A stretch of DNA of 24,224 nt from positions 1-24,224 of the IMG/VR virus record IMGVR_UViG_3300025131_009159. One strand, given 5' to 3'. Position numbers and translations under genes: made by a program. Below the pieces are notes generated by a model. It ran no database searches. It saw only the letters and a list, made by a program, of their open reading frames with translations, and was not told the origin of the DNA. This DNA is from a virus. Of this stretch, positions 2,340 to 23,109 are shown one piece after another; position 1 is the first letter of the stretch; the number at the start of each line of letters is the position of its first letter.

Positions 2340-4763
2340 ATGTACGAAGAAAGCAGCGTAAGAGAGGCCACTCTTGAATATTTTAATGGTGACGAACTGG
2401 CCACTAACGTTTTTATGACCAAGTATTGTTTGCGCGACAAGAAGGGTAATTTTATTGAGAAGACTCCAGACGACATGCACAGACGCATTGCCAAAGAGTT
2501 TGCAAGGGTAGAAGACAGGTTTGAATCGGGCAAAAATTTTTATCTTACTGAAAATGAGATTTACTCCTTCCTGAAAGATTTTAAATATATCGTGCCCCAA
2601 GGATCCCCGATGATGGGTATTGGCAATGATCACGTTAATGTATCTTTATCTAATTGTGTTGTGGTTGACAGCCCTCAAGACAATGTTTCGTCTATTATCG
2701 ATACTGGGAGAGATTTGGCTAATTTGTTCAAACGTCGTTGTGGCGTTGGTCTTGATATTTCTAATCTTCGCCCTGAAGGAGCGCCTGTACATAATTCGGC
2801 GCGCACCACCACTGGTGCTTGGAGTTTTGCTGACTTCTATTCTTACATTTGTCGGATGATTGGCCAAAATGGACGTCGCGGCGCTCTTATGATTTCTATG
2901 GACGTCCGTCATCCCGATATATTTAAGTTTGTCAAGATGAAACGAGACCTTTCGAAGGTTACGGGCGCAAATGTCTCGGTTAAAATAAGCGATAGCTTTA
3001 TGAAGGCTGTCGAGAATAATGAATCGTTTACACTGCAGTTTCCAGTCGACGGCGACCCGGAATTTGTTGATGAAATTGAGGCCAGCGAGTTATGGAGTGA
3101 AATTATTGAGTCTGCCACCAAAACAGCCGAACCTGGGCTTCTAATGTGGGACAATATTATAAATAATTTGCCGGCGCACGAGTATGCTGGATTTAAAACG
3201 ATTTGCACGAACCCTTGCGGGGAGATACCGCTATCAGCCTATGATTCGTGCCGTTTAATCTCCTTAAATCTCAAGCATTTAGTAGAAGACGCTTTCACGA
3301 AGAAAGCAAAGTTCGATTTCAATAAGTTAAAAGAAATAACAACTGTAGGAATGCGTCTCTCTGATAACCTGGTAGAACTTGAGCTGGAAAAGTTAGATAA
3401 AATTAGGGCTGCAGCCGACAGTAAAGATGAGAAACAATTGTGGGAAAAGTTGTGGGATGCCGCCTACCACGGGCGCCGCACTGGCCTAGGTACTCACGGT
3501 TTGGCAGATGCTATTGCGCGACTCAACCTAGCATACGACTCGCCCGAAGCTATTGAAATCATTGATAAAATTTATGCCACTGTTCGTAACGCCGCTTATG
3601 AGGAAAGTGTATGCTTGGCCCGAGAGCGCGGCGCCTTCCCGGCATTCTCCTGGCCACAGGAGAAAGAAAACTCATATATAAAAAGGCTCCCGAAAAATCT
3701 TTCTAAAAAAATTGAGACTTTTGGTCGCCGCAACATATCTATTCTTACAAATGCTCCAACGGGCTCCGTATCAATTATGAGCCAGACTTCTTCAGGGTTA
3801 GAGCCCGTGTTCCGTAATTCTTATATTCGGCGCCGCAAACTCTCTCATAATGAACAACACCTCGAAGCCGATTTCGTGGACGACTTGGGAGACAAATGGG
3901 TGGAGTATGAAGTGTTACACCACAATGTTCAGGAATGGCTAAATTTGCAAACGGATAAAAACTCTAAAATCCCTGATTTTTTTATGGAATCAGATAATAT
4001 CGACGGTTTTGCACGTATTGCTGTACAAGCAGCAATTCAGCGGCATATAGATCATAGCATTAGCTCTACAATTAACCTCCCAAAGGGAACAGCGCCAGAA
4101 GTGGTGGGTTCCCTTTATACTGAGGGGTGGAAACGAGGCCTTAAAGGACTTACAGTGTATGTGGAGGGATCTCGCAGTGGTGTTCTCGTGGCTCCGAAAT
4201 CAGAGGGTGGTGGGGCGTTTCCTCAACATCGTGCCCCCAAACGCCCCATTGAATTAGATTGTAATATTCATCATACTACTATTCAGGGAGAGAAGTGGAT
4301 TATCGTTGTTGGTTTGATGGGTGGGAAACCGTACGAAGTTATGGGCGGTCTTTCAAATCTGATCGAGATCCCTCGCGACAAGGCCGAGGGTATTCTAGTT
4401 AAAAATCCACGTAAAACAGTTAATTCTATTTATGACTTGAAAGTTGGAAAGAATGGTGATACAGTAGTAATAAAGGATCTCGTTAAAGTTTTTGATAATC
4501 CTAATCATTCAGCCTTCACCCGCATGATTTCACTCGGGCTCCGCCATGGATCCAACATTCAATACGTAGTTGAGCAACTACAAAAGGATCGTGATAGTGA
4601 TATGTTCAGTTTTGCCAAGTGTATCTCGCGCATTTTAAAGAACTATATTCCCGATGGCCAGACAGCCACCGAGAAGACTTGTTCGGAATGTGAAACTGAA
4701 GGCCTTATTTATGTGGAAGGCTGCGTGACCTGTAGGAACTGCGGCTTTGCAAAGTGTGGATAG
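2340..4763 (+). CDS. nrdJ: Adenosylcobalamin-dependent (class II) ribonucleotide reductase
   Basis: This enzyme reduces ribonucleotides to deoxyribonucleotides for phage DNA synthesis, using a B12-derived radical and so needing no NrdB partner or oxygen. It is 807 aa. Landmarks are SNC (Cys106) and DSCRL (Cys304) as the likely active-site redox pair, NPCGEIPL with the thiyl-radical Cys293 and Glu295, the phosphate-site motif TNAPTGSVS followed by SGLEPVF, and a Cys-rich C-terminal tail (Cys781, 784, 795, 798, 801, 806) typical of NrdJ, where it shuttles electrons. There is no obvious ATP-cone at the N-terminus. The start is preceded by AAGGGAGG at 6-nt spacing and the gene is tightly coupled to the helicase. 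Substrate level (di- or triphosphate) cannot be assigned by eye; the sequence style resembles diphosphate-reducing NrdJ. Activity would depend on host or environmental cobalamin. Confidence 0.93.
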   Translation: MYEESSVREATLEYFNGDELATNVFMTKYCLRDKKGNFIEKTPDDMHRRIAKEFARVEDRFESGKNFYLTENEIYSFLKDFKYIVPQGSPMMGIGNDHVNVSLSNCVVVDSPQDNVSSIIDTGRDLANLFKRRCGVGLDISNLRPEGAPVHNSARTTTGAWSFADFYSYICRMIGQNGRRGALMISMDVRHPDIFKFVKMKRDLSKVTGANVSVKISDSFMKAVENNESFTLQFPVDGDPEFVDEIEASELWSEIIESATKTAEPGLLMWDNIINNLPAHEYAGFKTICTNPCGEIPLSAYDSCRLISLNLKHLVEDAFTKKAKFDFNKLKEITTVGMRLSDNLVELELEKLDKIRAAADSKDEKQLWEKLWDAAYHGRRTGLGTHGLADAIARLNLAYDSPEAIEIIDKIYATVRNAAYEESVCLARERGAFPAFSWPQEKENSYIKRLPKNLSKKIETFGRRNISILTNAPTGSVSIMSQTSSGLEPVFRNSYIRRRKLSHNEQHLEADFVDDLGDKWVEYEVLHHNVQEWLNLQTDKNSKIPDFFMESDNIDGFARIAVQAAIQRHIDHSISSTINLPKGTAPEVVGSLYTEGWKRGLKGLTVYVEGSRSGVLVAPKSEGGGAFPQHRAPKRPIELDCNIHHTTIQGEKWIIVVGLMGGKPYEVMGGLSNLIEIPRDKAEGILVKNPRKTVNSIYDLKVGKNGDTVVIKDLVKVFDNPNHSAFTRMISLGLRHGSNIQYVVEQLQKDRDSDMFSFAKCISRILKNYIPDGQTATEKTCSECETEGLIYVEGCVTCRNCGFAKCG

Positions 4764-7064: not shown

Positions 7065-10000
7065 CAGATAAAAAGATTCCTTTCGTGGGGCTACACGCCC
7101 ACAGCGTGGCAGGCTCAATCTTCGATGCTATTGGGTATCCAGATGAGCATATGGATTTTTGCTATGAGAACGGAGGCGAAGCTCTCGCCTTGACGGACCA
7201 CGGGAATATGAATGGCTTTTCACACCAGTTTTTACACTGGCAGAAGATGAAGGCCGAAGGAAAAGAATTTAAGCCAATCTATGGTGTCGAGGCATATTTC
7301 TTGCCTTCCATTGATGAGTGGCGCGAGGATTATAATCGTATTAAAGAAGACGCGAAGCTCGCCAAATCATTGGCAAAAGAGGGCGACACCTCCGGCGCAA
7401 CCGTTGAGGATGAAGAGGCCTCCAAGAAAGCCATCAAGTCTGTTATCAATCGTCGACGACATCTCGTCCTTCTGGCACAGAATCAGACGGGGCTTAACAA
7501 CTTGTTCAAATTAATCTCAGCTTCATATAGAGAGGAGAACTTCTATCGCTACCCACGTGTAGATTATAAGATGCTCGCTGAGCACTCTGAGGGCGTCATC
7601 GCTGCGTCTGCCTGCTTGGGAGGCCCTTATGCTGGCAACTACTGGGAGAACCGTGAGGAGGGCCCAGAGGCTGTGAGAGAGGCGATGAGGGAAACGACTC
7701 GACGCTTCGTGGAGGTCTTTGGTGACCGTTGGTACGGGGAACTCCAATGGAATAACATTCCAGAGCAACACGAACTAAACCAGCACATCATCGAGGTATG
7801 CAAGGAGTTTGATGTTACATTAATTTCAACAGTGGATAGCCACTATCCCAATCGCGAAGCTTGGAAGGATCGGGAGCTTTATAAGCGCTTAGGTTGGCTA
7901 GGCAAGGGAACCCCGGCGTGGGCGGAAGACAATACGGAACTGCCCCGGGGCGTAGAAGAGATCGGTTATGAACTCTATCCTAAGAATGGAAATGAAATCT
8001 GGGAATCATATAAGCAATACTCCGAGAACCTAGGAATGGAATACGACGATGACTTGGTAATGAATTCAATTACCGAAACACACAACATCGCATTCAATCG
8101 GATTGAGACTTTTGTCCCCGATACTACCGTAAGGCTACCTGACTTTGTGGTGCCCGCGGGATTCACAGATGCGGAAGCACTGGTGAACTATGCTTTGGAG
8201 GGCCTGCGAGAGCGCGGCCTCCACGAGAACGAAGAGTACACCACTCGACTGCAACAGGAACTTGATGTTATTGGGGATCGAGGATTCAGTAAGTACTTCC
8301 TGACAATGAAGGCGATCGCCGACAAGGCCAATGAGGCTCAGTTGACTGGCCCAGGCCGAGGGTCTGCTGCTGGTTCGCTGGCTGCGTATGTGCTAGGCAT
8401 CACACAGATTGACCCAATCAAGTACGGACTCCTTTTCGAGAGGTTCCTGCGCAAGGATGCGACGGACTACCCCGACATTGATTATGATGTTGCGGAGCCG
8501 ATGGAACTCAAGGAAATGCTGATGGAAGACTGGGGCAAGAACTCGGTCATTCCAATTTCAAACTGGAACACACTACAACTTAAGTCTTTGATTAAAGATA
8601 TTTCAAAGTTTTATGGAGTGGAGTTCGGAGAAGTTAACAGAGTTACTTCTTCTATGATCGCAGAAGCAACACCAGCAGCAAAGCAACTACACGGCATTAA
8701 GGCGGGCGTCTACGCTCCAACCTGGGAAGAAGTAATGGAATTGTCTCCATCCCTGCGCGGCTACCTAGTAAAGTATCCACACATTAAGACACACGTCGAG
8801 GCGCTGGTTGGACAGGTTCGTTCCTGCTCCCGTCACGCAGGGGGCGTTCTGATTGCCGACGACTTGAACGAGCATATGCCAATCATTAGTTCGGGGGGAG
8901 TGCGCCAGTCACCGTGGGCGGAGGGCCAGCACGTTCGGCACCTGGAGCCTCTTGGGTTCATTAAGTTTGATTTGCTGGGCTTGTCTACACTTCGTATGAT
9001 CGAGGGCGCAATTCGCCACATTTTAAAGCGACACCATAATAATCCAGACCCCACATTTGAGGACGTAAAGGCGTTCTACAACAAACATCTGCATCCTGAC
9101 AAAATTGACTTTAACGATCAAAAAGTATACAAGAACATTTTTCAGAAAGGTAATTTCGCGGGTATTTTTCAATTCACAGAGCAGCGGGCACAGGAATTCT
9201 GTGCGAACGCAAAGCCGAAGTCCTTGATTGATATCTCTGCCATCACTTCGATCTATCGACCCGGCCCACTGTCGGCCAATGTGCACGAGCAATATGTTCA
9301 AGCAAAGGCTAGCCCGGGCAACATCGATTACATTAATGAGCACGTGAAGGATGTGACCAAGGAAACGTACGGGTTCCTTATCTTCCAAGAACAGATTGCC
9401 CTCCTGGCGCACAAGTTAGGAAAGGGACTCACCCTAGATGAGGGAAACTTGCTAAGGAAGGTACTCACCAAGAAGGGAACGGGGAAGGAAGCGAGAGTAA
9501 AGAAAGCGCTCCGCACCAAGTTTATCGATGGGTGCGTTGAGAAAGGGATCCGCCATAGCGAGGCCGACGATATGTGGGAGAGGTTCGAATACTTCTCTGG
9601 CTATGGTTTCAATAAGTCGCACGCAGTATCATACTCGGCAATCTCGTTCCAGTGCGCGTGGCTCTATAACTACTATCCAGTTGAGTGGATGGCGTCGTTT
9701 CTTGATAAGGAACCAGAGAAGCGCAAGGAGAAGGCTATCAACATTGCGAAGTCTAATGGCTTTAAGATTGTGGAGGCGGACATTAATACGTCGTCGTTCG
9801 TGTGGGAGATCGATCCCGACAACCCGAAGCGTTTGGTACAACCTTTGGCGGGCTTGAAGGGATTGGGAGACGCAGCAATTGAACAAATTGTTAACAACCG
9901 ACCATTTAACGATATTGAGGAGTTCCTCTTCCATGACGACATTATATATTCAAAGTTGAACAAGAAGGCTCTGGATGTACTCGTTCGTTCTGGGGCGTTG

Positions 10001-10501
10001 AATAAACTAATCGATGAGAGGTTCACTGGACGTAAGCACTTCTGGTCTGCTGTAGCAGTTGATCGCGTCTATAGCAAGAAGAAGTTCCTTGAGAACATCG
10101 AGAACTATAAGGACGAAGGCGATTTCACCAACGAAGAAGAGATTGATAATCTTACAACACTAACCGGTATTTTTCCAATGCATCTAGTGATGACTGAGGA
10201 TGTCAGACAGAGATTGGATAGCTACTACGTGCCGCCGGTTTCGGATTATGACCCAGAACTTGGGCTTGTGTGGTTCATTCCGCGCGAAGTTATTAAAAAG
10301 AAAACAAAGCATGGGAAGCCCTATTGGATTGTTGCAGTAATTGATTCTAACTCAGTGTTGACAAAGTTCCGGTGTTGGGGTATTATAGAGGGTAAGGATA
10401 GGATTCACATTAACCGTCCATATATGGGCAAGTTAGACTTTGATCCGGCGTGGGGATTTTCCACACGATCCATTAGAAGAAATTTAAGATTATTGGGTTG
10501 A
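7061..10501 (+). CDS. dnaE: DNA polymerase III alpha-type (C-family) replicase with PHP domain
   Basis: This 1146-aa protein is a full-length bacterial-type replicative polymerase. The PHP domain shows all the metal-ligand motifs I know: HAHS (His12, His14), TDHGN (His47), GVEAY (Glu77), HLVLLAQN (His134), SACLGG (Cys185) and DSHY (Asp259, His261). The palm has GPGRGSAAGSLAAY, then PDIDYD with catalytic Asp472 and Asp474, and KFDLLGL with the third catalytic Asp637, followed by a thumb/fingers region, a helix-hairpin-helix (LAGLKGLGDAAIEQIV) and an OB-like C-terminal segment (KTKHGKPYWIVAVID). No intein or frameshift was found. I see no QxxLF-type clamp-binding motif. It starts in a 4-nt overlap (ATGA) with the previous gene, with GGGAG 6 nt upstream. 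No proofreading epsilon subunit is encoded in the window. Confidence 0.96.
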   Translation: MTDKKIPFVGLHAHSVAGSIFDAIGYPDEHMDFCYENGGEALALTDHGNMNGFSHQFLHWQKMKAEGKEFKPIYGVEAYFLPSIDEWREDYNRIKEDAKLAKSLAKEGDTSGATVEDEEASKKAIKSVINRRRHLVLLAQNQTGLNNLFKLISASYREENFYRYPRVDYKMLAEHSEGVIAASACLGGPYAGNYWENREEGPEAVREAMRETTRRFVEVFGDRWYGELQWNNIPEQHELNQHIIEVCKEFDVTLISTVDSHYPNREAWKDRELYKRLGWLGKGTPAWAEDNTELPRGVEEIGYELYPKNGNEIWESYKQYSENLGMEYDDDLVMNSITETHNIAFNRIETFVPDTTVRLPDFVVPAGFTDAEALVNYALEGLRERGLHENEEYTTRLQQELDVIGDRGFSKYFLTMKAIADKANEAQLTGPGRGSAAGSLAAYVLGITQIDPIKYGLLFERFLRKDATDYPDIDYDVAEPMELKEMLMEDWGKNSVIPISNWNTLQLKSLIKDISKFYGVEFGEVNRVTSSMIAEATPAAKQLHGIKAGVYAPTWEEVMELSPSLRGYLVKYPHIKTHVEALVGQVRSCSRHAGGVLIADDLNEHMPIISSGGVRQSPWAEGQHVRHLEPLGFIKFDLLGLSTLRMIEGAIRHILKRHHNNPDPTFEDVKAFYNKHLHPDKIDFNDQKVYKNIFQKGNFAGIFQFTEQRAQEFCANAKPKSLIDISAITSIYRPGPLSANVHEQYVQAKASPGNIDYINEHVKDVTKETYGFLIFQEQIALLAHKLGKGLTLDEGNLLRKVLTKKGTGKEARVKKALRTKFIDGCVEKGIRHSEADDMWERFEYFSGYGFNKSHAVSYSAISFQCAWLYNYYPVEWMASFLDKEPEKRKEKAINIAKSNGFKIVEADINTSSFVWEIDPDNPKRLVQPLAGLKGLGDAAIEQIVNNRPFNDIEEFLFHDDIIYSKLNKKALDVLVRSGALNKLIDERFTGRKHFWSAVAVDRVYSKKKFLENIENYKDEGDFTNEEEIDNLTTLTGIFPMHLVMTEDVRQRLDSYYVPPVSDYDPELGLVWFIPREVIKKKTKHGKPYWIVAVIDSNSVLTKFRCWGIIEGKDRIHINRPYMGKLDFDPAWGFSTRSIRRNLRLLG
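10358..10386 (+). promoter_or_regulatory. Sigma70-type promoter inside the 3' end of dnaE
   Basis: TTGACA (10358-10363), 17 nt and TATTAT (10381-10386) give the same boxes and spacing as the site at 924. The expected RNA start near 10393 would make a leader of about 155 nt for the endonuclease-like gene. It lies fully inside coding sequence. Confidence 0.45.
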
Positions 10502-10526
10502 CACTCACTAAAGAAAGTGATACTAT
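10498..10526 (+). promoter_or_regulatory. Sigma70-type promoter of the restriction-modification-like cassette
   Basis: TTGACA (10498-10503) overlaps the dnaE stop codon; 17 nt later is TACTAT (10521-10526, 4/6), with TATAAG overlapping it. RNA would start near 10533, 15 nt before the endonuclease-like ATG. The spacer contains the inverted repeat TCACT-aaagaa-AGTGA (10505-10520), a possible operator that would fit the need to control a restriction cassette. Confidence 0.5.
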
Positions 10527-10547
10527 AAGGATACGGATACAGCACAT

Positions 10548-11066
10548 ATGACACCCGAACAAGAATACAAATACCTTTATGAAAGAATGGGGCGACTCTG
10601 CGAAGAACAAGAATGGGGCGACCCTTTTAGTTACGCGCGCAGTAAGGAGATTTATGCAGCAATTGTACTGGAACACCAAATTGCTCCGGACTATTCAGGC
10701 GCCGATGCTATCAACCAAAAGAAAGAGGAAGTAGAATATAAATCAACCATTGCCAAGAACTGCAAGGGCGCATACACAGGTATCTCAGTGCAGCCTACAC
10801 GGGAAGAACAGGAGCGTTATCTCATTGAAGAGAAGATCGTGAAGTACCCCGAGCACTATTTCAACCGCTTTGAAAAAAGTAGGCTAATGGAGTCTTGGAT
10901 GTTGACAGGACAGAAGGTATATGATATTCTAGAACCCAAGCTTAGCAAGAAGTTTAATACAGTTTTAAGCAAGAAAGATCCACGCCTTAGTGCCACCGTT
11001 TCGTGGAGAGATATACAAAACAACGGCGGAGTTCAAATTATTAAGAACGGAAAGAAGATAAAGTAA
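10548..11066 (+). CDS. PD-(D/E)XK restriction endonuclease-like protein
   Basis: This 172-aa protein shows the arrangement of a type II restriction enzyme core: a helix with Glu34 (SKEIYAAIV), then DYSGADAI with Asp53, a short turn, and the strand EVEYKST with Glu63 and Lys65, giving E...D...ExK. GAYTGISVQ follows as the next core strand. The rest (EEQERYLIEEKIVKY, HYFNRFEKSRL) is a conserved-looking helical and basic part that may bind DNA. It is the first gene of a promoter-linked set with a ParB-like gene (1-nt overlap) and a DNA methyltransferase. Together these suggest sequence-specific cutting of unmethylated DNA. The fold is inferred from motif spacing only and the recognition site is unknown. 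The ribosome site is weak (AAGGA 16 nt upstream). Confidence 0.65.
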   Translation: MTPEQEYKYLYERMGRLCEEQEWGDPFSYARSKEIYAAIVLEHQIAPDYSGADAINQKKEEVEYKSTIAKNCKGAYTGISVQPTREEQERYLIEEKIVKYPEHYFNRFEKSRLMESWMLTGQKVYDILEPKLSKKFNTVLSKKDPRLSATVSWRDIQNNGGVQIIKNGKKIK

Positions 11067-12187
11067 TGACAGCAAAAGCAAAGAACCAGGTACATCTACA
11101 AGTGGCCTCAGATCCTACATCCCTCGTGGTGTCGCCTCCGCTCGCGAGGTATAAGCCCAAGAAGCAGACTTGTCCTGTACGAACGATCTTTAATGGCAAG
11201 CCCCATCGTGAGAAAATGTATGAGATTCCTTTGGATGATATCGAAAGACTTTCACAAGACCAGATGCGTATTCAAGACTCTCAAGATTCCTCTGTCTCCG
11301 AGAAGCAAGATGACATGGAACAAAATGGTCAAGAAAACGGTATTGGGCTGAAATGGAACCCGACTAGTCAAAAATTCAGGGTGGTGTGGGGCCACACCAG
11401 GTTCCGTGCTGCGGTTAAGACAGCAGCGCAGGGTGGGACAATTCCGGGTAACCAAGATGGACACATCTGGGGTTATGTTTTGGATGAATCCTCCGCTGTT
11501 ATTGAACAACTAAAGGGTATTGAGAACACCAATTTTTCCCACGCCGTCGCCGCAACCAAAGAAGACGTTGCCAACAGCCTAAAGGAGATGGTCCGAAAGG
11601 GGGTTTTTGGATCCCCTTCAGACTTTGAAGACCTGGAGGAGGCCCAACAGAGAAAGTGTCTTAAAGACTGGGTGGACAAGTATGCCAACAGCTATGGAGG
11701 GAGAAAGTTTCAAGGAATTTGGAATATAGCGAAACGCGATATCTCCCAGGTAGCAAAGAAGCTCAAGACCTGGGATAAAGCCACTAGCCTTGTAGACTGG
11801 TTCAATAAGTTTAATCCTTATGGCCTTACTAATCCTTTAACACCCGGTAAAGAAGTGTCCGGAACGATAGTGCTGCTGCCAAACGGGAAACGACTAGCAG
11901 TCTATTTTGTGACTGCCTTCAAGGAACTCCACACCAATGTTCCAGCGAACACCCAGTGGAAGAAAAATGTAAATAACGAAGTTGATGAAGTTGTAGTGGT
12001 AGCTTGCTTTAACGAATCGGCTGTTTCTAAGCTTCCCGCCAAGCGTATCGAAGGTATCGATAAGATTCGTAAGTGGAATAGTGGGGTCTCCCCTAACTCA
12101 GTTGACCGGCTGCTGATACCCCCCACGACTGAGTTGGAACAACAGGATGAGATTCAAACTCCTTGGGTAATAGACGTGACATTTTAA
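11066..12187 (+). CDS. ParB/Srx-like domain protein in the restriction-modification-like cassette
   Basis: In this 373-aa protein, residues about 50-140 carry a ParB N-terminal-like fold: MYEIPLDDIERL, then IGLKWNPTSQKFRVVWGH and GHTRFRAA (109-116), equivalent to the G-x-R-R signature region of ParB, which binds or cleaves nucleotides. ParB-like domains are commonly paired or fused with phage DNA methyltransferases, and here the next gene is one. The C-terminal 230 residues are unassigned, with Trp/Lys-rich helical stretches (KCLKDWVDKYANSYGG, VAKKLKTWDKATSLVDWF) and a beta-rich part (SGTIVLLPNGKRLAVYFV). Start and upstream stop overlap (TAATG). The gene could be a specificity or regulatory subunit; nothing in the sequence proves that. 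Confidence 0.65.
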   Translation: MTAKAKNQVHLQVASDPTSLVVSPPLARYKPKKQTCPVRTIFNGKPHREKMYEIPLDDIERLSQDQMRIQDSQDSSVSEKQDDMEQNGQENGIGLKWNPTSQKFRVVWGHTRFRAAVKTAAQGGTIPGNQDGHIWGYVLDESSAVIEQLKGIENTNFSHAVAATKEDVANSLKEMVRKGVFGSPSDFEDLEEAQQRKCLKDWVDKYANSYGGRKFQGIWNIAKRDISQVAKKLKTWDKATSLVDWFNKFNPYGLTNPLTPGKEVSGTIVLLPNGKRLAVYFVTAFKELHTNVPANTQWKKNVNNEVDEVVVVACFNESAVSKLPAKRIEGIDKIRKWNSGVSPNSVDRLLIPPTTELEQQDEIQTPWVIDVTF

Positions 12188-13075
12188 ATGGCCACTCTTC
12201 CACCACAAAACATGGAAGGTCTTGAGTATCTTCGCACAATCGACGATAATTCTATCGACTTGGTGCTGACTGACCCTCCTTATATTACTTCCCGCGATTC
12301 GGGAATGGATAAGTGGGTTGATTGGGTCGATAACGTAAAAAAGAACAATCTTCAGATGCGCACAGAAGCCCAGTGGCGCGCCTTCAAGACTGCCACAGAG
12401 TGGAAAAAGTGGGCGCGCCAAGGTGGTTACGCGCCGGGCAAAGAGCGCCTCAAAGCTTTAAAGAATGCCAAAAGAAATTATCTTAAGTATGGTTCTATCT
12501 ATGGAGAGAAATATGCTGTTCGTACTGATTATGGTAAGTGGGATTCAGAATTTACGATGCAGACAATGGATAAGTTCGTGGAAGAATTCTATCGCGTCTT
12601 ACGTCCTGGAGGCACTTGTATTATTTTCTTTGATATCTGGAAAATATCTTACCTTAAGGAAATGATGGAATGTCACAAATTCAAGCAACCTAGGTTTATT
12701 GAATGGGTTAAAACAAATCCTCAACCGTTAAACAGCAGTCGCAATTACCTCACCAACTGTAGAGAGATAGCGCTGTTGGGAGTTAAAAAGGGAAGTCCCA
12801 CCTTCAACAGCAAATATGATAACGCGATATACGAGTATCCGATTCAGGGAGGGAAGTGGCGCATTATGCCTACCCAAAAGAGCTTGTCCTTATGTGAGGC
12901 CTTAATTAAAAAGCATTCCAACGAAGGAGATCTTATTATTGATCCTTTCCTGGGTGCCGGCACAACCGCGGTTGCTGCAGCCAACACAGGACGAAAGTTT
13001 AAAGGCTGTGAACTAAGAGAAGATATGTTTAACCAAATGATGGAAAGGATCGAAGGTGAATTAAATGAAAGCTGA
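12188..13075 (+). CDS. Beta-class DNA methyltransferase (likely N6-adenine)
   Basis: This 295-aa enzyme transfers a methyl group from S-adenosylmethionine to a DNA base. Motif IV DPPY is at residues 29-32, followed by a 100-residue target-recognition region rich in Lys/Trp (KKWARQGGYAPGKERLKAL), and motif I DPFLGAGTT is at 252-260 near the C-terminus. This IV-TRD-I order defines the beta class; DPPY favours adenine-N6 over cytosine-N4, though both occur. RVLRPGGTCIIFFD and WVKTNPQP are further family motifs. The ATG directly follows the ParB-like stop with no clear ribosome site, so translation is probably coupled; an ATG at 12212 is an alternative start. It overlaps purA by 11 nt. As partner of the gene at 10548 it would protect phage DNA. 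Confidence 0.9.
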   Translation: MATLPPQNMEGLEYLRTIDDNSIDLVLTDPPYITSRDSGMDKWVDWVDNVKKNNLQMRTEAQWRAFKTATEWKKWARQGGYAPGKERLKALKNAKRNYLKYGSIYGEKYAVRTDYGKWDSEFTMQTMDKFVEEFYRVLRPGGTCIIFFDIWKISYLKEMMECHKFKQPRFIEWVKTNPQPLNSSRNYLTNCREIALLGVKKGSPTFNSKYDNAIYEYPIQGGKWRIMPTQKSLSLCEALIKKHSNEGDLIIDPFLGAGTTAVAAANTGRKFKGCELREDMFNQMMERIEGELNES

Positions 13076-14072
13076 TATAGTAATAGGATTGTCTTATGGT
13101 GACGAGGGCAAAGGAAAAGTAACTCACCACCTACTCAAATCGGGGGGGTATACCCACTGTCTTCGTTTTAATGGAGGATGTAACGCGGGGCACACCATTT
13201 ACCACAAGGGCAAGAAGTTTGTAACACACCATATACCTGCTGGAGTATTCTTCGGAATACGATCTATTATTGGGCCCGGGTGTGTCGTAAATCTTGAACA
13301 GTTTAAAAACGAGATTGCTGATTTAGAAGAGAGTGGGGTTCAAACTTCGGGTCTTGTTTTTATTGCCAAAAACACTCACGTTATCACTAGCGCACACTTA
13401 GAAGAGGATGGTCGCGAAAGCGCAATCGGAACCACCAAGCGAGGCAACGGGCCCGCCTATAGGGATAAGTATGACCGTACAGGCACCCGGGCGCAGGATG
13501 TTCCCGAGTTAAAGAACAGTCCTTATCTTATTGATTTATACAGTGAATTTTATAATGGACTAGTAGATCCGTGGATTCTTTGCGAGGGCGCACAAGGGTT
13601 TGGCTTGGACATTGACTGGGGAGATTATCCTTTCGTAACCTCAAGTCATTGCACAACGGCCGGCGCACTTTTAAATTGTATTCCACCTCAAGTAGTTCGT
13701 AGAGTATTTGGGGTTACGAAGGCTTATGATACCTATGTGGGGTCCAAGAAGTTCCATGGCAACGGCCGCGCGTTCGATCTTTTACAACAGGTTGGCGATG
13801 AATATGGTTCCACAACTGGGCGCCCACGACAGTGTAATTGGCTTGACGCAAGAATGCTGAGAAAAGCAATCATCGTTAACGGGGTTACTGATTTGATCAT
13901 TAACAAAGTAGACGTCCTACGAGAAGTTGGAAAGTGGAACTTGCGTTCCTACACCGACGATCGTATTTTTATACAAACAGGAAACGAGCAGGCGTGGAAA
14001 CAATATCTTAAAAAGTATCTAGAAGATACGGACGTTAATATCATATTTTCAGAAAGCCCAGAAAGGATTTAA
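13065..14072 (+). CDS. purA: Adenylosuccinate synthetase, short phage/archaeal-like form
   Basis: PurA joins aspartate to IMP using GTP, making adenylosuccinate on the way to AMP. At 335 aa it is about 95 residues shorter than E. coli PurA and close in length to archaeal PurA and phage PurZ. The P-loop-like YGDEGKGK keeps the catalytic Asp13, NAGHT keeps catalytic His43, and AIGTTKRGNGPAY, CEGAQGFGLDI, TTGRPR and NKVD (280-283) match IMP- and guanine-binding motifs. NKVD argues for GTP as donor. The usual TRVGxGPFP stretch is altered to TYVGSKKF (223-230). PurZ, which makes the 2-aminoadenine precursor, normally lacks the Asp, so ordinary PurA chemistry is favoured, but a dGMP-using variant is not excluded. 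No PurB is seen. An AGGTGA ribosome site lies 6 nt upstream. Confidence 0.88.
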   Translation: MKADIVIGLSYGDEGKGKVTHHLLKSGGYTHCLRFNGGCNAGHTIYHKGKKFVTHHIPAGVFFGIRSIIGPGCVVNLEQFKNEIADLEESGVQTSGLVFIAKNTHVITSAHLEEDGRESAIGTTKRGNGPAYRDKYDRTGTRAQDVPELKNSPYLIDLYSEFYNGLVDPWILCEGAQGFGLDIDWGDYPFVTSSHCTTAGALLNCIPPQVVRRVFGVTKAYDTYVGSKKFHGNGRAFDLLQQVGDEYGSTTGRPRQCNWLDARMLRKAIIVNGVTDLIINKVDVLREVGKWNLRSYTDDRIFIQTGNEQAWKQYLKKYLEDTDVNIIFSESPERI

Positions 14073-15921: not shown

Positions 15922-16118
15922 AGACGGGTGATTTTGTAGCAAGCCACCGCCGAGACGGAGATGCCCCCGCGATGACTGGAATTGTAATTGAAGTGTTTGA
16001 AATACAACCATTACCTCAACATTTCCGGGTTGAACCATTGCCAATGGTTAGGGTCGCTACGAAAAATGGGGCACAATGTTGGAAAAGAAGAAAGTTAAAA
16101 GTTATAAATGAATATTAA
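15918..16118 (+). CDS. Small beta-rich protein (SH3/KOW-like), 66 aa
   Basis: A 66-aa protein with ATGA overlap to the upstream stop and an 11-nt overlap with the next gene. MKTGDFVASH, then GIVIEVFEI and MVRVATKNG, ending CWKRRKLKVI, read as short beta strands of a small barrel, with a basic end. A similar arrangement (GDLV...GVITHV...W...) appears in the protein at 23799. The function is unknown. Confidence 0.65.
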   Translation: MKTGDFVASHRRDGDAPAMTGIVIEVFEIQPLPQHFRVEPLPMVRVATKNGAQCWKRRKLKVINEY

Positions 16119-17148
16119 AGGTCACGCAGCAAAAGGGTTGACATACGATGATGTATTACTTGTCCCACAATATTCTGATATTAAGAGTCGCAAAGAGATT
16201 AACATAGGAAATTCTTTTCCGGGGCCCCATGCCACCGTACTGCTCGACTTACCCATCATCGCCAGTCCCATGGATACTATCTCAGAATCTCGAATGGGAA
16301 CTGCTATGTGGCAGCAGGGAGGCCTCGCGATCATCCATCGTTATAATACTGTTGAGCGTCAGGCTGCCTTGGTCGACGAGGTTATTGTGGGAGCAAATGG
16401 TAACGTTGCTGCAGCAATAGGTGCCTCTGGTGACTATTTAGATAGAGCACGCGCCCTTGTTGGTGCTGGCGTTAGAATCTTATGTGTTGATGTGGCCCAC
16501 GGCCACCACATTTTAATGAAAGAGGCGTTGGCGACCCTGCGGCAAGTGTTTGGCGACGGGGTCCACATTATGGCTGGCAACGTTGCAACCTTGGAGGGTT
16601 ACAATGACTTGGTCGATTGGGGAGCCGATAGTGTGCGCTGCAATATTGGCGGCGGTTCTATTTGTTCAACTAGGATTCAGACTGGCCACGGTATTCCGGG
16701 CCTTCAAACAATTATTAATTGTGCTAAATCAAACCGGCGAGCGCCCATCATTGCTGATGGAGGATTGCGGAACGCTGGAGATATTGTCAAGGCTTTGGCG
16801 GCTGGTGCTGACTTCGTTATGCTTGGGTCTGTGCTTGCAGGTACTGATGAAACTCCTGGCGATGTAATTAATACGCGTAAAGGTAAGTTTAAGTCTTATC
16901 GAGGAATGGCCAGCAACGACGCTCAAGTGGAGTGGCGCGGAAAGACGTCTTCAGTCGAGGGAATTGCCACCACTGTGCCTTGTAAGGGCCCTGTAAAAAA
17001 TGTATTAGAGGAATTGGCCAGAGGGATTCGCAGCGGGTTTTCATACTCGGGCGCTCGAAGCATTAAAGAACTTCAGGGCAAAGCACAATTTATAAGACAG
17101 ACTGGCAGCGGCCAGCTTGAAAGTTCAACGCATATTTTGAAACGATGA
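16108..17148 (+). CDS. IMP dehydrogenase/GMP reductase family enzyme, without CBS domains
   Basis: This 346-aa TIM-barrel enzyme starts with [15 protein letters not shown], as in GuaB. It has the catalytic loop GGGSICSTR with Cys186 and Thr188, [36 protein letters not shown] and YRGMAS. IMP dehydrogenase oxidises IMP to XMP; GMP reductase turns GMP into IMP. The evidence is mixed. Size, missing CBS domains and a short flap (about 18 residues between YRGM and EGI) resemble GuaC. The LTxDDVLL start and the C-terminal [10 protein letters not shown] resemble GuaB. The Glu that follows GMSS in GMP reductase is Asn270, and the Arg-Tyr pair of IMP dehydrogenase is not evident. Direction of the reaction is therefore open. 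It sits near purA, so it balances A and G nucleotides in either case. Confidence 0.88.
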
Positions 17149-18674: not shown

Positions 18675-19103
18675 ATGTATGAAGTAACAACCGGAGAATT
18701 AATGGTTTTTGTGGTCTTGGGCTTTGGCGCTGGCATCTTTGCCAGTGTTTACTTGTCCAAAATATTTGAAGTTGTTCATATGTGGCGCCTTGTACAAGAA
18801 GTTGTTGCTCATTGTTTACTGATGTGTGTGAAGATTATTGAGGATATATCATTTCTTACGGAGCTAAAACGGAAGCATATGAAAAAGTCCGACCTTACCG
18901 ACGATCAAATTCGCAGCTTTGAGGAAGTTGACCAAAGAACCTTGACAAACTGGAAAAATTCAGTTATACTATCCTTAATAGATGGGGCTCCCAAGCGGTT
19001 TCGTACGCTGATGCCGTTCACCAACTGGAAGGAAGCAATTAAGTTTCTGGAAGAATCCAAGAAAGCCTCAATAATTGAGAGAAAGAAAAATTATGATTTA
19101 TGA
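18675..19103 (+). CDS. Single-pass membrane protein, unknown function
   Basis: This is a 142-aa protein. Residues about 8-30 (LMVFVVLGFGAGIFASVYL) form one transmembrane helix near the N-terminus; the rest is helical and charged (FLTELKRKHMKKSDLTDDQIRSFEEVD) and presumably cytoplasmic. The family is not recognised. The only ribosome-site candidate is GGGG about 4 nt before the ATG, right after the terminator T-run. Its coding sequence contains the promoter at 18942-18970 and overlaps clpP by 11 nt. Confidence 0.75.
   Translation: MYEVTTGELMVFVVLGFGAGIFASVYLSKIFEVVHMWRLVQEVVAHCLLMCVKIIEDISFLTELKRKHMKKSDLTDDQIRSFEEVDQRTLTNWKNSVILSLIDGAPKRFRTLMPFTNWKEAIKFLEESKKASIIERKKNYDL
18942..18970 (+). promoter_or_regulatory. 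Sigma70-type promoter inside the membrane-protein gene, upstream of clpP
   Basis: TTGACA (18942-18947), 17 nt and TATACT (18965-18970), the best pair of boxes in the window. RNA would start near 18977 and give a leader of about 115 nt before the clpP ATG at 19093. Confidence 0.55.
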
Positions 19104-19713
19104 TAGCACCCACGAAGAAGAGGGTATAAAAGAAGTAACAGAAGAGGAGGAAAAGACAGAAGAAGAGGAGGAAGAAAGCTCTCTTCTGGGGCTGTGTTCC
19201 GAAATTAACGAAGAGTCTATGAAGGAGATTGCACTCAGTCTTCTTACCCTTAACGGTGGTCAGATATTACACGAAGATCCAAGTTCTATAAAAGAGACCA
19301 AGGATGTTGAATTCTTTATTTCCTCCAACGGGGGCTCTGTCAATGACATGTTTGCCATCTATGATTTAATGGAACTGGTAAAGTGCAATCGAGACATCGC
19401 CACTTTTGGCTATGGGAGAATTGCTTCTGCAGCTGTCCCTCTGCTTGCCTTTGGAACACCCGGAAAGCGCCACATTTCTAAGCACGCGCGCCTTATGATC
19501 CACCACTGTTCTAGTGAGGTGGGAGGCACCCATCCTACTATTCGTACAAGTTTTGCGGAACTTAAGAAAGTGGAAGCAATGATGATTGAAGCACTCGCAG
19601 CGAACTCCAATCTTTCAGTTGGTGAATATTACAGTATTTTCTCTAAGAATACGGATGAATATTTTTCAGCCCAACAAGCAGTAGAAATGGGTCTTGTTGA
19701 CAAAATCATCTAA
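19093..19713 (+). CDS. clpP: ClpP-type serine protease subunit
   Basis: This 206-aa protein is a ClpP-fold peptidase. The oxyanion region ISSNGGSVND (76-85) is followed by GRIASAAVP with nucleophile Ser112, ARLMIHH with His137, and NTDEYFSAQQAVEMGLVD with Asp188, so the catalytic triad is complete. ClpP forms a two-ring barrel and needs a Clp ATPase for protein substrates; none is encoded here, so it would borrow the host's or cleave folded or peptide targets itself. Residues 8-30 are a run of Glu/Thr not found in host ClpP. I use ATG 19093; the TTG at 19075 is a weaker option. Neighbours with possible cleavable N-termini raise the idea of a role in head maturation, but protein turnover is equally likely. 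Confidence 0.92.
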   Translation: MIYDSTHEEEGIKEVTEEEEKTEEEEEESSLLGLCSEINEESMKEIALSLLTLNGGQILHEDPSSIKETKDVEFFISSNGGSVNDMFAIYDLMELVKCNRDIATFGYGRIASAAVPLLAFGTPGKRHISKHARLMIHHCSSEVGGTHPTIRTSFAELKKVEAMMIEALAANSNLSVGEYYSIFSKNTDEYFSAQQAVEMGLVDKII

Positions 19714-21534: not shown

Positions 21535-23109
21535 GTGCCCAAGTGTAAATTTGAGTCTCGTTTTGGACTAAGCGCAAAAGTATTAAAGGGAGTAAATACC
21601 CTAGCCGATAATGTAGCGGCAACTCTGGGCCCCAAGGGTCGCAACGTCATCCTTCACGAGAAGGGTAAAGAGCCCTTCATCACCAAGGATGGAGTAACTG
21701 TTTCAGCTTTTGTGCATGCGGATGATGAATTCGAGAATGCCGCCATTCAAATTATAAAGCAGGCAACCTCTCAGACTAATACGATGGCTGGCGACGGTAC
21801 TACAACCGCAACTGTATTGGCTAGAGAGATTCTTGTGGGCGCCCAAAGATATATTACTGCCGGCGCATCCCCCGTAGAGCTTAAACGAGGGATTGATGCT
21901 GCAGTCGAGAAGCTTGTGATCGAACTTAAGAAGAGTGCCACGCACGTTGAAACTCTGGATGATGTTGAAAACATTGCAACTATTTCAGCCAACAATGATC
22001 GAACGATTGGCAAGCTCGTGGCCACGGCAGTTGATAAGGCAGGCAAGGACGGGAGCATCACGATTGAGGAATCGAGGACTGTTGACACGAGTCTAGATAT
22101 TATTGAGGGTTTTCGGCTGGAGTCTGGATATGCGGCGTCTGCTTTCGTAACAGACGAACGACGCGGAGCAGCACACTTTGATTCACCACTCTTGCTTATC
22201 ACCGATAATAAAATTGATAGTGTGGATCAGATTCTCTCAGCGCTTGAGATTGTATCGCGGGACGGAAGGGCCCTCGTTATTGTGGCCGAGGACATTGAAG
22301 GGCAAGCGCTCGCTGCTCTGATTATGAACACAGTTCGAGGTACGCTGAAGATTGCTGCTGTGAAGGCGCCTTTCTATGGCGAACGACGACGAAACATTCT
22401 TGCAGATCTGGCGTTGTCGACAGGCGCTGAATATATCTCACGCGATAGCCAAGTGCGCCTAAAGGACATTAAACTTCAACACTTTGGCCAATGTCGTTCG
22501 ATCGATATTACCAAGACCAACACAACTATTATTGGTGGTAAAGGCAATTTTAAGGAAATTGATAAGAAAATCGAATTACTGAAGGCTGAGCTTCAAGCAT
22601 TGGATGAACTTCGTGAATGCGAAAAGATTCAGGAGCGTATTACAAAGTTGGCTGCCGGAGTGGCGGTTATCAACGTTGGAGCAGCAACCGAGGTTGAAAT
22701 GATTGAGAAGAAACATCGAATTGAAGATGCACTGGAAGCGGTGATGTCTGCACAGCAGGAGGGTATTGTACTCGGGGGTGGTGTTGCACTTTTACGAGCG
22801 TGTAACGCTCTCACCGCCGTGGGGGTTGAGAATGAGGATCAGCAATTTGGCGTTGATATAGTAACGGCGGCCGCAACTGCTCCGCTACGACAGATGGCGA
22901 CAAATTGTGGATTATCACCTGATTTAACTTTGCACCAGGTAGAGGAGCTGGAAGGGAATTTTGGATACGATTTTAGAAATGATGAGGTAGTTGATATGTT
23001 AGAGGCGGGCATCGTGGACCCTGTAAAAGTAACAAGAACAGCCCTCCAGAACGCTGCTTCGGCGGCGGGCACCTTAATTACAACTTCGCATGCGATTATA
23101 GAGGTATAG
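21535..23109 (+). CDS. groL: GroEL-type chaperonin, phage-encoded
   Basis: This 524-aa protein aligns by eye over the whole length of GroEL. The ATP site has TLGPKGRNV, DGVTVSA, AGDGTTTATVLA and, near the C-terminus, VGAATEVEMIEKKHRIEDAL, where Asp in RIEDAL corresponds to the catalytic Asp398 of E. coli. The apical-domain stretch VKAPFYGERRRNILADLALSTGAEYIS is conserved. The Gly-Gly-Met tail is missing; it ends in IIEV. It folds proteins inside a double-ring chamber and may pair with the GroES-like protein at 4776. The start is GTG with AGAGAGG 6 nt upstream. The gene has its own strong promoter, suggesting high output separate from its neighbours. Confidence 0.96.
   Translation: MPKCKFESRFGLSAKVLKGVNTLADNVAATLGPKGRNVILHEKGKEPFITKDGVTVSAFVHADDEFENAAIQIIKQATSQTNTMAGDGTTTATVLAREILVGAQRYITAGASPVELKRGIDAAVEKLVIELKKSATHVETLDDVENIATISANNDRTIGKLVATAVDKAGKDGSITIEESRTVDTSLDIIEGFRLESGYAASAFVTDERRGAAHFDSPLLLITDNKIDSVDQILSALEIVSRDGRALVIVAEDIEGQALAALIMNTVRGTLKIAAVKAPFYGERRRNILADLALSTGAEYISRDSQVRLKDIKLQHFGQCRSIDITKTNTTIIGGKGNFKEIDKKIELLKAELQALDELRECEKIQERITKLAAGVAVINVGAATEVEMIEKKHRIEDALEAVMSAQQEGIVLGGGVALLRACNALTAVGVENEDQQFGVDIVTAAATAPLRQMATNCGLSPDLTLHQVEELEGNFGYDFRNDEVVDMLEAGIVDPVKVTRTALQNAASAAGTLITTSHAIIEV

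Follow-up and report, generated by a model that had tools for sequence, protein, structure and literature searches.

Organization of the locus

The window (the whole stretch of DNA analyzed, 24,224 nt, which is an entire virus record) is probably a genome fragment, since the first of its reading frames runs open to the edge. Its central part contains three adjacent plus-strand genes. The first (10548–11066) encodes a 172-aa predicted PD-(D/E)xK endonuclease of the PvuII fold, with D53, E63 and K65 as predicted catalytic residues and E34 also invariant. The second (11066–12187) encodes a 373-aa ParB-fold protein with partial boxes I–III and a C-terminal region, and occupies a position that we refer to as the exchangeable slot. 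The third (12188–13075) encodes a 295-aa putative beta-class amino-DNA methyltransferase with a DPPY motif; among curated families, it is closest to those of adenine-N6 enzymes (CcrM, PRK11524 type). The compact spacing noted in the first-pass annotation is correct: the nuclease and ParB-like genes overlap by 1 nt, and the ParB-like and methyltransferase genes abut with 0 nt between them. All three reading frames have relatives, so they are genes and not chance frames.

The cassette is not isolated, as same-strand genes flank it on both sides. A gene for a DnaE-like polymerase ends at position 10501 upstream, and the end of the methyltransferase gene overlaps by 11 nt the next gene (13065–14072), which encodes a PurA-like protein and is followed by dUTPase and Dam-type genes. 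The PurA/PurZ-like protein (335 aa) matches PHROG 1211, ‘2-aminooxy adenylosuccinate synthetase’, yet NCBIfam PurA models outscore PurZ, and the Asp of GDEGKGK is kept. The window also encodes a phage IMP dehydrogenase (16108–17148), so that this phage has, beside dUTPase and ribonucleotide reductase, both of the purine branch-point enzymes, the other being the PurA-like protein. A ClpP-type protease (19075–19713) and a Cpn60 chaperonin (21535–23109) are likewise phage-encoded.

A promoter-like element, TTGACA-17-TACTAT (10498–10526, plus strand), lies 5′ of the nuclease gene. The TTGACA-17-TAYTAT arrangement, i.e. the −35 and −10 elements, and the AAGGATA that follows it are kept at this position in four relatives, L004, L005 and L009 among them, while neighboring positions vary. 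The region contains 12 promoter-like sites versus 11.1 in shuffled sequences, so it is conservation alone that lends credibility to the promoter at 10498. The inverted repeat in its spacer (TCACT-aaagaa-AGTGA, 10505–10520, with no strand assigned) is present but probably a chance occurrence: its folding lacks significance (z = −1.46, with an equal or better fold in 21 of 200 shuffles), and none of the three relatives that were compared (L004, L005 and L009) has it intact. The repeat was thus rejected as an operator; of the promoter and repeat reported earlier, only the former is credible, and regulation of the cassette through the repeat is not supported.

Two features of the relatives concern this upstream region. 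In L004, a small ORF (7737–7968) is inserted between the DnaE gene and the nuclease promoter, and the insertion is flanked by a duplication, relative to the window, of ∼32 bases comprising the DnaE end and the promoter start. In L004, L005 and L009, the nuclease gene starts at an in-frame ATG right after AAGGAT. The corresponding codon of the window (10533–10535) is ACG, so either the window gene starts at the ATG five codons later or the sequence contains an error.

Fold and active site of the nuclease

The proposal that the first gene encodes a restriction-type endonuclease was originally based on an E34, D53, E63-x-K65 core. This core is present and does not vary among the distinct relatives (64 of 64). 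The AlphaFold model of the 172-aa protein (mean pLDDT 94.7, pTM 0.89) has a PD-(D/E)xK fold of the PvuII type, and in a Foldseek search of the PDB, PvuII accounted for each of the 10 best matches (E values from 4e-5 to 2e-4, probability 1.00). The next matches were the BisI-family enzymes Eco15I and NhoI, with a TM score of 0.36 versus 0.56 for PvuII. When a profile of 55 relatives was compared with the PDB, PvuII (3ksk) was matched over 63 ungapped residues (E 0.005); in this alignment, D53, E63 and K65 superpose with identical spacing on D58, E68 and K70, the catalytic residues of PvuII. The window nuclease itself has no match in Pfam, the PvuII family (PF09225) included, or in NCBIfam. PF09225 is matched weakly by 20 of the 55 relatives (best E 3e-4), and its curated cut-off is not reached by the relatives whose scores were seen (e.g. 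18.5 bits versus a cut-off of 25 for the P-TIM68 relative, E 0.002). The structural model places the 172-aa protein among PD-(D/E)xK nucleases of the PvuII fold, and the evidence as a whole goes well beyond a chance occurrence of the motif. Residues 83–85 of PvuII, a histidine cluster, contact its recognition site. This cluster has no counterpart near G78–Q82 of the window nuclease, so the latter is likely to have a recognition site other than the CAGCTG of PvuII.

Distribution of the nuclease family

A scan of IMG/VR with the nuclease family gave 349 matching stretches, from which 80 loci were kept. In the isolated-phage collection, relatives were found only in P-SSM2, P-SSM5 and P-TIM68, where they are annotated as ‘hypothetical protein’. 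One scan of contigs from bacterial genomes produced a single match (L086), on a contig of only 3.3 kb from a Flavobacteriales MAG; this contig is possibly of phage origin. A literature search, for which most subscription journals were out of reach, found no paper on this nuclease family. The family has a PvuII fold and is apparently unannotated, although uncultivated phages contain hundreds of its members and well-known isolates have it too.

Association with methyltransferases

The assignment of the third gene to beta-class DPPY methyltransferases was confirmed by its match to PF01555 (E 7e-30) and by the order of its motifs; both the DPPY and the C-terminal F-x-G-x-G-type motifs of the 295-aa protein are intact. 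The partners of the nuclease were then counted in 85 loci, which correspond to 53 clusters. A DNA methyltransferase gene lies within 2.5 kb of the nuclease gene in 76 of the 85 loci and in 47 of the 53 clusters. The partner is a beta-class enzyme in 51 loci and a small, unrelated enzyme of phrog_799 in 25, and neither is found in the remaining nine. Loci with no recognized methyltransferase nearby include L049, L057, L058, L061, L062 and L067; several of them are short, and some of the nine lie at contig ends. The gene orders R-M, R-x-M, M-R and M-x-R (R, nuclease; M, methyltransferase) all occur, and the methyltransferase partner has changed at least four times on the nuclease tree. Such repeated switching of partners, between methyltransferase families that are unrelated to each other, makes a chance neighborhood unlikely.

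The nuclease and the phrog_799 methyltransferase also co-occur in the isolates: among Prochlorococcus phage records, both are confined to the same six, which belong to P-SSM2, P-SSM5 and P-TIM68, and in P-SSM2 the two genes are ∼7 kb apart. The SPPY methyltransferase of P-SSM2 was considered as a cognate partner and is disfavored because this enzyme is common in cyanophages without the nuclease, which makes the phrog_799 enzyme the better candidate in these three phages. The small phrog_799 methyltransferase (SNPPF; L002:6509–7036) is 75–93% identical to the P-TIM68 copy in loci with much more strongly diverged nucleases, and thus seems to be more conserved than its partner.

The ParB-like protein and the exchangeable slot

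The GHTRFRAA motif that led to the description of the middle protein as ParB-like is present, and the ParB fold is backed by structure searches. For the AlphaFold model of the 373-aa protein (pLDDT 82.5), the best 21 Foldseek matches were all ParB, Noc, KorB or PadC, which share with it the N-terminal fold and the helical domain. Residues R68, G109, R112 and N154, at box I–III positions, are invariant in 19 of 19 ParB-like slot proteins, and the usual arginine of box III is absent. The window protein belongs to a branch of eight members, to which a second, divergent branch is related by hhalign (98.3%, E 1.8e-14). All eight members of the window branch adjoin both the nuclease and the methyltransferase genes, and ParB–methyltransferase pairs that regularly occur without the nuclease were not seen. 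One locus of the sister branch, L098, lacks both partners: its ParB-like slot protein (3722–4750) is encoded between dUTPase and Dam-type genes, with neither the nuclease nor a beta-class methyltransferase, and is perhaps a remnant. No ParA ATPase gene adjoins the ParB-like gene on the 24-kb fragment, where the neighbors are the nuclease, methyltransferase, DnaE and PurA-like genes.

Across the loci, the slot contains a ParB-like gene of either branch, a gene for an HNH-containing protein (a weak match, E 0.02), a GHKL ATPase gene similar to MzaB (L019; PF13589, E 2e-18; MzaB, E 6e-10) or a gene for a helicase-like protein (a DEAH-like motif recognized by eye, with no solid family match), or it is empty. 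On the nuclease tree, a quick tree with moderate support, slot content changes 16 times, the least possible number being 5. In close relatives, the divergent stretch runs precisely from where the nuclease gene ends to where the methyltransferase gene starts. The DNA of L021 and L048 is 91% identical until 16 bases past the nuclease stop codon, unalignable in the slot and 87% identical from the methyltransferase gene's first base onward. The same pattern is observed for L012 and L015 (93% before the slot and 95% after it) and for the window and L004 (82% and 89%); in the latter pair, flanking proteins are 90–95% identical, the nucleases 81%, the methyltransferases 79% and the slot proteins only ∼13%. 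These sharp breaks of identity at the slot borders in three pairs of relatives indicate that the slot is replaced as a unit. The fixed R–ParB–M operon envisaged in the first-pass annotation is thus not borne out. The suggestion that the ParB-like protein serves as a specificity or control subunit fares little better: because many relatives lack its gene or have an unrelated one in its place, the protein is unlikely to be required for such a role, and as a general rule an obligate subunit is rejected. The exchange of the slot suggests accessory functions on which selection for change is strong.

A probable phage-borne restriction–modification pair and alternative explanations

The fold, the invariant catalytic residues, the association with methyltransferases and the exchange of the slot, as obtained from sequence and structure prediction, make a phage-borne type II-like restriction–modification pair a well-supported assignment. 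We consider it quite probable that the nuclease and methyltransferase are such a pair of a marine tailed phage and that the middle gene is an exchangeable accessory. The methyltransferase would mark, probably at adenine, a sequence in the DNA of the phage, and a dimer of the PvuII-fold nuclease would cut the same sequence where it is unmarked. Cutting would degrade host DNA, DNA of competing phages, or both, and spare the carrier. The middle gene would be an accessory (here ParB-like, elsewhere a GHKL ATPase, HNH-containing or helicase-like protein) that is swapped by recombination at gene borders. A site common to both enzymes, an active and dimeric nuclease, and the DNA that it attacks are points that we infer. 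Counting against the pair are the weakness of the Pfam PvuII matches, the few loci with no recognized methyltransferase nearby and the ∼7 kb that separate the two genes in P-SSM2. The earlier idea of a phage system that cuts unmodified host or rival DNA while protecting its own is thus supported in part, by the restriction fold and the methyltransferase linkage in 76 of 85 loci, but not in its form of a fixed three-gene operon. A bolder version, which we regard as speculative and rather unlikely, is a modular phage weapon with a fixed nuclease–methyltransferase frame and a plug-in third gene that contributes a separate activity against DNA or phages. In the ParB-like variant, this would be a CTP-switched DNA clamp coupled to restriction. 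We know of no such use of a ParB protein.

A related explanation is that the nuclease, ParB-like protein and methyltransferase form one complex, in which the ParB-like protein, loaded at sites as a clamp with a CTP switch, would gate or direct both cutting and methylation. It would account for the ParB fold, for the partial retention of boxes I–III in 19 of 19 proteins and for the nearly exclusive co-occurrence of the protein with the nuclease–methyltransferase pair. However, the slot is empty or unrelated in many loci in which the nuclease and methyltransferase are equally conserved, PvuII-type nucleases recognize their own site, and the usual arginine is missing from box III, so we view a single complex as unlikely. 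It is even less probable that the PvuII-fold protein is a nuclease of phage DNA metabolism (junction resolution, packaging or host shut-off) with methyltransferases as chance neighbors in a replication cluster. Although the cassette is set among DnaE, dUTPase and PurA-like genes, nuclease-only loci exist and phages with REase-fold resolvases are known (PMC7824862), the nuclease pairs with two unrelated methyltransferase families in varied gene orders and contexts, and its nearest structures are those of sequence-specific PvuII, not of resolvases. A modification-dependent nuclease like NhoI and Eco15I, which would cut modified host or rival DNA, is suggested by the rank of these enzymes directly after PvuII in the Foldseek search. 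Their structural match is clearly weaker (by the TM scores given above), and an adjoining methyltransferase could create targets in the phage's own DNA. The invariant ExK (E63-Y64-K65) also counts against modification dependence, since NhoI and Eco15I have QxK (PMC11347163); we consider this explanation very improbable.

Comparison with known systems

The restriction–modification pair proposed here resembles the PvuII system in the nuclease fold, in active-site spacing and in the location of a beta-class methyltransferase gene beside the nuclease gene. It differs in that structural identity of the nucleases is only 15–17%, the window protein not being matched by the Pfam PvuII family, and in that the cassette lacks a C-protein gene and has a variable third gene between R and M. 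M.PvuII is an N4-cytosine enzyme, whereas the DPPY methyltransferase of the window has its closest relatives among adenine-N6 enzymes. The BisI family shares the PvuII-like PD-(D/E)xK fold; NhoI and Eco15I, with their QxK active site, require methylated sites (PMC11347163), in contrast to the ExK and partner methyltransferase of the window system. The middle protein is similar to ParB, Noc, KorB and PadC in the fold of its N-terminal and helical domains, the GxTR box and the box III Asn, but it has no ParA partner in sight, a different C-terminal region and a location inside a restriction cassette, and ParB-like slot proteins diverge fast, down to ∼13% identity. For the Mza defense system, the component compared is MzaB, which is matched by the slot gene of L019; that gene has no counterpart in the window. 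The Mom-REase fusions of jumbo phages have been proposed to modify the phage's own DNA and attack that of the host or a superinfecting phage (PMC7824862). The logic proposed for the window system is alike, but the fusions use another modification chemistry and are fused, unlike the type II-like pair of the window. A 2014 survey reported that phages almost entirely lack complete restriction–modification systems (9 in 831 genomes; PMC4176335). In summary, type II-like restriction–modification in a mobile element is known in kind, while there seems to be novelty in the nuclease family, in its spread among marine phages and in the exchangeable slot, and whether phages direct restriction against hosts or rivals becomes directly testable in cultivated cyanophages.
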